A stretch of DNA of 64,000 nt from Kribbella sp. NBC_01245 (GTDB taxonomy: Bacteria; Actinomycetota; Actinomycetes; Propionibacteriales; Kribbellaceae), in NCBI RefSeq assembly GCF_036226525.1, contig NZ_CP108487.1, positions 992,001-1,056,000 on the forward strand. Reading direction: 5' to 3'. Shown piece after piece: positions 50,955 through 53,672 of the stretch. A model generated the notes under the pieces. That model was not told the origin of the DNA. It was given only the letters and a program-made list of their open reading frames with translations, and did no database searches. The position numbers and the translations under genes were made by a program. Each line of letters opens with the position of its first letter. The stretch's first letter is position 1.

Positions 50955-52265
50955 ATGCATCGCCCGTGGAGCAACCTGCGAGCAAGGGTATTCCCCGACC
51001 ACTGGTCGCTGCTGTTCGGCCAGATCGCCTTCTACAGCTTCGTCGTGATCGTGCTCAGCGGCGTGATTCTGACGGTGTACTACGAACCGTCGGTCGATCA
51101 TGTCGTGTACGACGGACCGTACGCACCGCTGCGCGGCGTACCGATGTCACGTGCACTGGAGTCCACCCTGGCGATCACCTTCGAGGTCCGCGGTGGTCTG
51201 CTGATGCGCCAGATCCATCACTGGGCCACGTTGATCATGACGGCGGCTATCACGCTGCACTTGTTGCGGCTGTTCTTCACCGCTGGATTCCGTCGGCCAC
51301 GGCGGGTGAACTGGCTCGTCGTCTTCGGGGTCCTGACCGTCACGCTGGCCGCCGCCCTCACCGGCACCTCACTCCCGGATGACATGGCGTCCGGCACGAG
51401 CCTCGCCGTACTCGATGGTGTCCTGCAAGCGACTCCGGTCGTCGGCCCTGCTCTCTCGGCGGTGCTGTTCGGGGGCCAGTTTCCGGGCGATGTGCTCTCG
51501 TGGTTCTACCCGTTGCACGTCGTCGTCCTGCCCGCCGTACTTGTAGTCCTCTTCGTTGTCGGTGCGGTCCTCGCACTCAGGCACAGGCCCGCGCAGTTCA
51601 CCGGACCCGGGCGAACCGAGGACAACGTGGTGGGACGTCCGGCACGCGTGGCTGCGGTCAAGAGTGTTGGTCTGCTCTGCTTCGTCGACGGCGCGCTCCG
51701 GCTGGCACCAGGCTGGGAATTCGTCGTGCAGGGCAAGACGATCACCCTGGCGGTACTCCTGCCGGTCACGGTCTGCACGCTGTTCCTCGCGCTCGTCGCC
51801 GTCTACCCGTTCATCGAGGAGCGTCTGACCGGCGACCGTAACCATCACCACCTCCTCCAGCGGCCGCGCAACAACCCGACCCGAACGGGCATCGGAGTCG
51901 CCGGCATCACCTTCTATGGTGTGCTCTGGGCCGCAGCCGGGGCGGACACGATGGCCGTGTTGTTCCACCTTTCGGTGAACTCACTCCTGCAGCTCTTCCA
52001 GGTCCTCCTGATCCTGGGCCCACCCGCCGCACTGGTGATCACCCGCCGCATCTGCCTCGGGCTACAAGAACACGATGCACGGATCGCGGAGCTCGGCGTC
52101 GAGACCGGCATCGTCGTCCGGCGGCCGGACGGTGGGTACGTCGAACAACACCGCCCAGTCGACGAATATCGGCGCCAGCAGCTCGTGGGCGCATCCACCG
52201 AAAACCGCGCGGCCGGGGATCCTGGTCCGCCGCGTCGGCGCCTGCTGGGCAGGACGTCCGCCTAA
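50955..52265 (+). CDS. Degenerate QcrB-like cytochrome b paralogue
   Basis: 436 residues after CAGGAGGGG. The N-terminal half follows actinomycete QcrB closely: GGLLMRQIHHWA with His88, His102 14 residues later, SLPDDMASGTSL and FPGDVLSWFYPLH with His188. The second ligand of that helix should be 14-15 residues on, but positions 202-203 are Val-Gly. The stretch from NVVGRPARVAAVKS runs straight into VDGALRLAPGWE, so the segment that holds the PDWY quinol-site motif in QcrB is missing. No QcrA or QcrC gene is near. It is a membrane protein, probably binding one haem fully, of unknown function. Confidence 0.85.
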   Translation: MHRPWSNLRARVFPDHWSLLFGQIAFYSFVVIVLSGVILTVYYEPSVDHVVYDGPYAPLRGVPMSRALESTLAITFEVRGGLLMRQIHHWATLIMTAAITLHLLRLFFTAGFRRPRRVNWLVVFGVLTVTLAAALTGTSLPDDMASGTSLAVLDGVLQATPVVGPALSAVLFGGQFPGDVLSWFYPLHVVVLPAVLVVLFVVGAVLALRHRPAQFTGPGRTEDNVVGRPARVAAVKSVGLLCFVDGALRLAPGWEFVVQGKTITLAVLLPVTVCTLFLALVAVYPFIEERLTGDRNHHHLLQRPRNNPTRTGIGVAGITFYGVLWAAAGADTMAVLFHLSVNSLLQLFQVLLILGPPAALVITRRICLGLQEHDARIAELGVETGIVVRRPDGGYVEQHRPVDEYRRQQLVGASTENRAAGDPGPPRRRLLGRTSA

Positions 52266-52310: not shown

Positions 52311-53672
52311 GTGCTGGTTGCGAAGCGATACAGACTCGGTCCGTCCATTGCGCGGGGTGGCATGGGAGAGGTGTTCCGTGCCACCGATGAGCAACTGGGC
52401 CGGCTGGTCGCGGTCAAGCTGCTGTTGCCGTCACAGGATCCGGACGCGGGTGAGCGGTTTCATCGCGAGGCACAGGCGGCCGCGAAGCTGAGCGACCCGC
52501 ACGTGGTCTCCGTGTACGACTTCGGCCGGCACGGGGACGGGTTCTTCCTGGTGATGGAGCTGGTCGAAGGCCGGACTGTCGCCGAGGAACTCGCCCAGCG
52601 CGGACCGCTGCCGAAAGATCGCGCGATCGACATCATCGAACAGGCTGCCGCGGGCCTGGCCGCGGCGCATCGGGTGGATGTCGTCCATCGGGACGTGAAG
52701 CCGCGCAACCTGTTACTGACCGCGGACGGCTTGGTCAAGGTCGCGGACTTCGGCATCGCCCACCTGCCGGCAGACGAGGCGACTACGTTGACGGCGACGG
52801 GCCAGATCATCGGCAGCGCCCATTACCTCGCACCTGAGCGAGCAAGCGGCGGCCGCGCGGTCAAAGCCTCGGACGTGTACTCGCTGGGTTGCGTGCTGTA
52901 CCAGTTGGTGACGGGTCAGCCGCCGTTCGTTGCGGATCACCCCACGGCGATTCTCTACCAGCATGTCGACGCTGCTCCGGCACCTCCGAGTCTGCTCCGG
53001 CCCGAACTGGGCGGACCGTTCGAGGACATGCTGCTCCGGATGCTCGCCAAGGATGCCGCCGATCGTCCGTCGGCCGCCGAGATCGCGGCCGGCGCCCTGC
53101 GCGTCGAACCGCTCGGAGACACCTTCAGTGCCGCCCGGATGCCGAGCAACACCCTGCTAGCCGGCCTGGTCGCAGCCCTCGCGACGGTAGCGGCCGTGAT
53201 GGCCGGAGTTCTTCTGTACGGCAGTGAGACGAAACAGCCGCCGACGACCGACATCGACCCTGCACCGGGAATCAGGTCCAGTACGCCGAAGACTGACGCG
53301 CCGGAATCCCAGACCACCACCGGCCGCACCCAGCCCGGCTCTGTTGACCGGCCGACCACATCGACACAGCCATCACAAAGCGCCTCTTCGCAACCAACAC
53401 CGTCTACCGCCTCTCCCAGCAGCACCTCGCCTGGAGCTACGCCTTCTCGTACGCCCACGCAGAGCAGCACGCCCACTCAGCGAACGCCTTCGACGGCACC
53501 TTCGCCCGCCAGCACGCCGCCACCCCAGAGCGCGTCGACGGCCACCCCGTTAACAGCCACTCCTTCGACAGTCACTCCCTCGACTTTCACTTCCTCAACT
53601 CGAACACCGGCGACTGGTACGCCGGCAACACCGGCATCCGACTCGGCCACTGGATTACTGCTGCCGCGCTGA
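52311..53672 (+). CDS. Receptor-type Ser/Thr protein kinase
   Basis: 453 residues from a GTG. Kinase domain 7-270: glycine loop IARGGMGEVF, Lys36, catalytic HRDVKPRN with Asp128, DFG at 146-148, and GSAHYLAPERA. A membrane helix lies at about 281-303. The outer part of 150 residues is almost only Ser, Thr, Pro and Ala, with no folded sensor domain. It follows the cytochrome b gene by 45 bp and may be co-transcribed. Its last 86 bases overlap the convergent EamA gene. Confidence 0.9.
   Translation: MLVAKRYRLGPSIARGGMGEVFRATDEQLGRLVAVKLLLPSQDPDAGERFHREAQAAAKLSDPHVVSVYDFGRHGDGFFLVMELVEGRTVAEELAQRGPLPKDRAIDIIEQAAAGLAAAHRVDVVHRDVKPRNLLLTADGLVKVADFGIAHLPADEATTLTATGQIIGSAHYLAPERASGGRAVKASDVYSLGCVLYQLVTGQPPFVADHPTAILYQHVDAAPAPPSLLRPELGGPFEDMLLRMLAKDAADRPSAAEIAAGALRVEPLGDTFSAARMPSNTLLAGLVAALATVAAVMAGVLLYGSETKQPPTTDIDPAPGIRSSTPKTDAPESQTTTGRTQPGSVDRPTTSTQPSQSASSQPTPSTASPSSTSPGATPSRTPTQSSTPTQRTPSTAPSPASTPPPQSASTATPLTATPSTVTPSTFTSSTRTPATGTPATPASDSATGLLLPR

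Follow-up and report, generated by a model that had tools for sequence, protein, structure and literature searches.

Cytochrome b is defined by two haems and two quinone sites. The protein described in this work is a stand-alone paralogue (hereafter orphan) of QcrB, the cytochrome b of the bcc-aa3 supercomplex (NCBIfam NF050120; PDB 6adq, 7q21, and 9gy6), with which it shares full-length homology and fold, the bL ligand pair, Asp309/Arg313 (Mycobacterium smegmatis numbering), and most of the P-side loop residues. In contrast to QcrB of the supercomplex, it lacks the bH ligand pair, the Qo acid, Tyr159, and a qcrA neighbour, and the copy analyzed here is also devoid of most of helix E and of the ef loop. 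For M. smegmatis QcrB, the published account (PMC11189923) gives His109 and His211 as the haem bL ligands and describes an ion pair of His110 and Asp302. In the same source, Tyr159 is given a relay function, leading from the semiquinone to Asp302, the Tyr159/Asp302 pair being proposed to pass the second proton, and Asp309 and Arg313 are assigned to the other proton path.

Stand-alone QcrB paralogues are likewise present in Streptomyces coelicolor, i.e., QcrB2 and QcrB3 (SCO7120 and SCO7236), of which QcrB3 may lie outside the clade of the orphan. According to PMC7931247, the gene of QcrB3 is located apart from the qcr-cta genes, and the protein co-purifies with Nar1 and with supercomplex subunits, and moves Nar1 into a larger complex. 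A further comparison is offered by the cytochrome bc1 of Rhodobacter, which, as reported in PMC4330944, still works when haem bH and the Qo site are knocked out on opposite halves of the enzyme, through bL-to-bL electron transfer. The H212N and G158W mutants (PMC4330944) are also examples of a cytochrome b that has bL, is devoid of bH, and has its Qo site disabled; they were, however, made in the laboratory by point mutation of the catalytic subunit, whereas the orphan is a naturally kept paralogue occurring beside an intact QcrB. Within the openly available papers, no description of a bH-less QcrB paralogue was found, a scope that makes this a weak indication of novelty.

A stand-alone QcrB paralogue of Kribbella

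The window analyzed in this work, i.e., a stretch of 64,000 nucleotides of Kribbella sp. NBC_01245 (NZ_CP108487.1, positions 992,001 to 1,056,000), carries on its forward strand an open reading frame (50955..52265) preceded by AGGAGGGG upstream of its ATG start and encoding a protein of 436 aa. This protein was recognized as a cytochrome b/QcrB homologue by Pfam (PF13631, 5e-41; PF00033, 2e-21), and its top PDB match was an actinobacterial QcrB (E 4e-107), the homology and the fold extending over the full length except for a 40-residue gap at helix E. With the NF050120 model it scored 486.9 bits, i.e., below the cut-off of 500, which was passed by six of the nine other orphans tested; the canonical QcrB scored 772.7. 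As the model is named 'cytochrome bc1 complex cytochrome b subunit', the orphans that pass it are likely to be named as the catalytic subunit, in spite of sequences that predict no working Q cycle.

Two AlphaFold runs were performed, the first with 16 sequences (pLDDT 59, a poor model) and the second with 58 (pLDDT 76.4, a usable one); of the sequence sets compiled, A1 comprised 15 rows and A3 the window copy together with 57 of the 80 loci. In the usable model, residues 230–246 had a pLDDT below 50 and no long helix was found between residues 209 and 265, and the remainder superposed on QcrB of eight actinobacterial entries with Z values of 29.8 to 32.4. The best structural matches were all actinobacterial QcrB proteins.

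The source genome (8.68 Mb, a single contig) encodes a second, canonical QcrB, localized directly after qcrA at C1:2.61 Mb; the genes ahead of qcrA are, judged by eye, presumably ctaE and qcrC. The sole QcrA of this genome is encoded there (C1:2608687), and none is encoded with the orphan. Of the features of the catalytic QcrB, the window protein thus has the homology and the fold, and it lacks the full set of four His ligands, the acidic Qo motif (PDWY or PDFY), and the qcrA neighbour.

The clade of orphan QcrB proteins

A family of 38 orphans was gathered, comprising 30 copies of Kribbella (the window one included), five of a genus taken as Actinopolymorpha, and single copies of G037 (a sister genus), G131 (another family), and L039 (a Catenulispora MAG). 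In a maximum likelihood tree, all 38 were separated from 13 canonical QcrB proteins with a support of 100/100, and the row closest to the window copy was that of G041; the placement of G131, G037, and Catenulispora within the clade is less certain, their branches being long. The orphan QcrB is an old clade of stand-alone paralogues in Actinomycetes, which spans several families. Within Kribbella, it was found in 30 of the 38 genomes (match at E 1e-78), and its absence from the other eight indicates that its role is dispensable. The reading frames of all 38 copies are open over 423 to 519 aa. The stops seen in five search rows (G006, G011, G013, G037, and G041) were considered as broken frames and rejected as such, since the frames read out at 436 to 463 aa; we take these stops to be natural ends overrun by the matches.

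The window protein was aligned with the 13 canonical QcrB proteins, all of which have the four His ligands. Its haem bL pair consists of His88 in helix B (51216..51218, + strand; M. smegmatis His109), a position occupied by His in all 38 family members and all 13 canonical proteins, and of His188 in helix D (51516..51518, +; M. smegmatis His211), also His in 38 of 38. The former bH ligand of helix B, His102 (51258..51260, +), is present, and its partner is gone: the second bH place in helix D, recognized by the H-x14-H spacing, is occupied by Gly203 (51561..51563, +). These assignments agree with the preliminary description of this DNA, in which the same three His residues were reported as kept and the fourth was placed at Val202/Gly203; a His at the fourth position was not found.

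In the whole family, the bL pair is thus complete in 38 of 38 members. The first bH His occurs in 30 (the others having Y in four cases, Q in two, and L and N in one each) and the second in two only (G in 11, A and L in five each, S in four, M in three, V, K, and I in one each, and a gap in five). Of the two members with the second bH His, G030 carries Tyr in the first bH position; a complete bH pair was found only in the Catenulispora row, and the bH site is broken in 37 of the 38 members. A chance effect or an alignment error at the fourth ligand was rejected, as His is missing from this column in 36 of the 38 family members and present in all 13 canonical proteins. In the loci L020–L023 and in the G049 copy (L176), all of Kribbella, about five helix D residues around the bH ligand place are deleted, which is another route to bH loss.

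The Qo motif reads PAWY in 29 members, PTWY in four, PSWY in two, and PLWY and ALWY in one each, and it is deleted in the window copy; the Qo acid is therefore absent in all 38. Mapping of the M. smegmatis residues showed that the equivalents of His109, His110, His211, Asp309 (Asp245 of the window protein; 51687..51689, +), and Arg313 are present in 38 of 38 members. The equivalent of Asp302 was present in none of them, nor was that of Tyr159 (T 30, S 6, H 1, A 1). In the canonical rows, Tyr159 and Asp302 are present in 13 of 13, and position 309 is Asp or Glu. As Asp302 and Tyr159 are gone and Asp309/Arg313 are kept, the relay to bL was lost as a pair and the Rieske-side path stays. Judging from the sequences, the Kribbella branch has lost the bH ligand pair, Asp302, Tyr159, and most of the N-side loop residues, and such orphans are predicted to be unable to run a Q cycle. 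An orphan QcrB without bH and without the Qo acid is a family-level feature worth attention.

Conservation of the P-side half and selection

Residues identical in at least 12 of the 13 canonical QcrB proteins were regarded as canonical-invariant, and their retention in the Kribbella orphans was compared between both sides of the membrane, helices E, G, H, and the C-terminus being excluded from the count. On the P-side, 61 of 94 such residues are retained, versus 20 of 58 on the N-side (Fisher p 4e-4, with segment limits hand-set from the helix pattern and columns that are not independent); for the loops alone the values are 43 of 60 and 8 of 33, respectively.

The dN/dS ratio between the window copy and its nearest relative, G041, was 0.231 for the N-terminal part and 0.225 for the C-terminal part. 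In 16 other orphan pairs it ranged from 0.10 to 0.36, and for the canonical QcrB of five of the same genomes (10 pairs) from 0.18 to 0.29. Since the values of the orphans are similar to those of the canonical QcrB, the clade is not decaying; the earlier statement that the sequence does not reflect random decay is borne out for the lineage, by these ratios and by the bL ligands kept in all 38 members. Frame decay of the window copy was rejected as well, as there is no stop, dN/dS is not raised, and the protein deviates from the family at no near-invariant position.

It could be argued that the orphan is a roleless QcrB duplicate slowly losing its sites, of which the window copy is the most advanced. 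Such a relic would fit with the various replacements of the bH ligands (G, A, S, L, V, M, K, I, or a gap at one place; Q, Y, L, or N at the other), with the eight Kribbella genomes devoid of the orphan, and with the block deletion of the window copy. We find this improbable, however, in the face of uninterrupted frames (423 to 519 aa) in all 38 copies, dN/dS of 0.10 to 0.36, i.e., like that of the canonical QcrB, retention of the bL pair, His110, Asp309, and Arg313 in 38 of 38 members, and a clade extending over several families.

The reading that we prefer, and to which we give an even chance, is that the orphan may be an accessory QcrB unable to run the Q cycle, which would act via its bL/P-side half and maybe partner the canonical QcrB, the window copy being impaired. 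Intact orphans would then be folded, one-haem (bL) membrane proteins, which would use their P-side face to serve bcc-aa3 as an accessory partner that is electronically a dead end. They could pair with the canonical QcrB or with its QcrA/QcrC, and would tune or organize the supercomplex, having no quinol-to-quinone circuit of their own. A conserved clade with the P-side haem only, maintained by purifying selection beside an intact QcrB, would mean that half of the machine is useful alone.

A private deletion in the window copy

In comparison with G041 and G020, exactly 120 bp (40 residues) are missing, in frame, from the window copy (junction at 51684..51688, +). The breakpoints, localized within 3 bp, lie in an imperfect repeat (left CTTCGTCG, right CTTCCTCG), a pattern expected from slippage or from deletion at short homologies. 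The larger part of helix E is removed together with the ef loop and its P-x-W-Y motif, and the peak hydropathy of the junction region drops from 2.14 to 1.54. The block with the PDWY motif had been noted as absent, with a jump from NVVG to VDGALRL, and the alignment and the comparison with relatives confirmed this. More exactly, AAVKSVGLLCFV is joined directly to DGALRLAPGWE, which leaves the first third of helix E in place; the PGWE and HHHLL segments are retained downstream, as described before. A displaced PDWY-like motif was not found in the window copy, the loss of 120 bp relative to its relatives being clean.

The deletion is confined to the window copy, i.e., one of the 30 Kribbella copies, and the other 29 have the block, reading PAWY. 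Therefore, of the earlier picture of a protein with one complete haem site and no Qo site, the first half stands (bL pair in 38 of 38, bH pair broken), whereas the missing Qo block cannot be regarded as the design of the family. It is an ordinary, recent deletion, and the missing bits of the window copy are the outcome of two separate events, one old and clade-wide, the other recent and private. As one membrane helix is lost, the topology downstream should be disturbed, and the window copy is probably impaired or non-functional, with the remaining reading frame still undecayed.

The 120-bp loss might also be a sequencing or assembly error, the true copy being an ordinary PAWY orphan, as the deletion is unique among the 30 Kribbella copies and flanked by short repeats. 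Nevertheless, the genome is a single contig, the reading frame is intact, the junction is clean, and an assembly would not collapse at repeats as short as these (about 8 bp), which makes such an error extremely improbable.

A sister lineage in Microbacteriaceae

When 394 genomes of the class were searched, second copies of QcrB were found in which Gln replaces the first bH His. Their family was judged to be Microbacteriaceae, based on canonical QcrB proteins sharing 79 to 100% identity with loci of named Microbacteriaceae. A profile (A4) built from three of these orphans was then searched in 199 genomes of the family, which resulted in nine copies of at least 713 bits (in 9 of 199 genomes), with the canonical ones directly below (at most 702 bits). 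All nine retain the bL pair, PDWY, Tyr159, and Asp309, and their bH places are occupied by Gln and Arg in eight cases and by His and Tyr in one; the lower-scoring loci that were read (n = 21) all had the four His ligands. In the Microbacteriaceae loci concerned (L218–L226 and L215–L217), both bH ligands are gone (Gln and Arg in eight of nine), the Arg occupying a former haem ligand position.

A tree with three Microbacteriaceae orphans included 15 of the 38 family rows, and a larger, unrooted one contained 11 of the 38 with nine Microbacteriaceae orphans and 21 canonical rows. In the latter, the Microbacteriaceae orphans joined the Kribbella clade versus the canonical rows with a support of 100/99, and the three orphans of the former tree grouped likewise. 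As the complete set of four His residues is found in Catenulispora, which belongs to the other branch, the simplest scenario is that of at least two losses of the bH site.

The motif retention in both lineages bears on another reading, in which the orphan would be a one-haem quinol/quinone oxidoreductase, whose bL links the quinol of a residual Qo pocket with a carrier outside the membrane. The intact members have the bL ligands, the W-Y of the motif, Asp309, and Arg313, and the Microbacteriaceae orphans even retain the whole PDWY/Tyr159 set. On the other hand, Asp302 and Tyr159, the proposed second-proton residues of M. smegmatis (PMC11189923), are both lost in 38 of 38 family members, and no carrier gene was recognized near the orphan; we regard this oxidoreductase as rather unlikely.

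Returning to the accessory role preferred here, its partner deserves separate consideration. The engineered asymmetric bc1 of Rhodobacter (PMC4330944) makes a natural heterodimer of the orphan and the canonical QcrB thinkable, and by analogy a half-equipped cytochrome b paired with the canonical QcrB might form a natural asymmetric bcc complex in Actinomycetes, which we consider unlikely. As the orphan half has only bL, electrons could exit from it only by bL-to-bL transfer to the canonical bH/Qi site. Were such a complex to exist, the Microbacteriaceae orphans, with their Qo site intact, would feed electrons in, and the Kribbella ones, whose Qo site is dead, would serve as a throttle or a scaffold. 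The orphan clade would also offer a natural test of inter-monomer bL-to-bL electron transfer, which has been studied with engineered enzymes.

Gene surroundings of the orphans

No QcrA homologue was found in the stretches retrieved for the other 37 family loci and for three Microbacteriaceae orphans, whereas 68 of the 119 QcrB loci examined have one. A second Rieske protein was found in none of the 38 Kribbella genomes (at E 1e-20), which encode one QcrA each. Five further stand-alone QcrB loci (L066, L087, L097, L107, and L108) have all four His residues, which indicates that standing alone does not entail the loss of sites. PDWY or PDFY was found in these loci, except for L108, where the pattern of the script missed the motif. 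They represent a separate kind of QcrB duplicate, distributed in Kribbella, Thermocatellispora, Nonomuraea, and Actinopolymorpha.

Downstream of the window orphan, a gene for a PknB-type Ser/Thr kinase (52311-53672) with a long Ser/Thr/Pro-rich tail was identified, in which Pfam found no PASTA domain; its GTG start at 52311 lies 45 bp past the orphan stop codon, as was previously indicated. Its link with the orphan, suggested in the preliminary description, did not hold: the kinase is absent from the 29 other Kribbella orphan loci, with the exception of a weak 35% match in L130, and a shared function was rejected, as the gene pair is not conserved. The same concerns a P-side redox or quinol sensor, which would bind menaquinol or a redox carrier and signal, here via the kinase. 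Although the kinase gene is adjacent and on the same strand, the orphan gene stands alone, and the bL site, Asp309, and Arg313 are retained, no conserved signalling neighbour was seen and the kinase does not adjoin the orphan in those 29 loci (bar the L130 match), so a sensor seems very improbable. The earlier proposal of a sensor or a quinone reductase part likewise found no conserved sensor or reductase neighbour.

No neighbour is conserved across the Kribbella orphans, and the gene order varies between subgroups, so that there is no genomic pointer to function. An upstream DUF2461-like gene is common only to the G041 locus (one of 29 Kribbella loci). A fixed gene order was seen in one Kribbella subgroup, and a different order is common to four of the five Actinopolymorpha copies. 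In L178, L187, and similar Kribbella loci, the orphan faces, as judged by eye, polyprenyl diphosphate synthase-like and NuoN-like genes, and loci of this type are possibly near menaquinone or complex I genes. In Actinopolymorpha (L113–L115 and L174), a sodium:solute symporter-like gene and a gene for a small membrane protein, also recognized by eye, follow the orphan.
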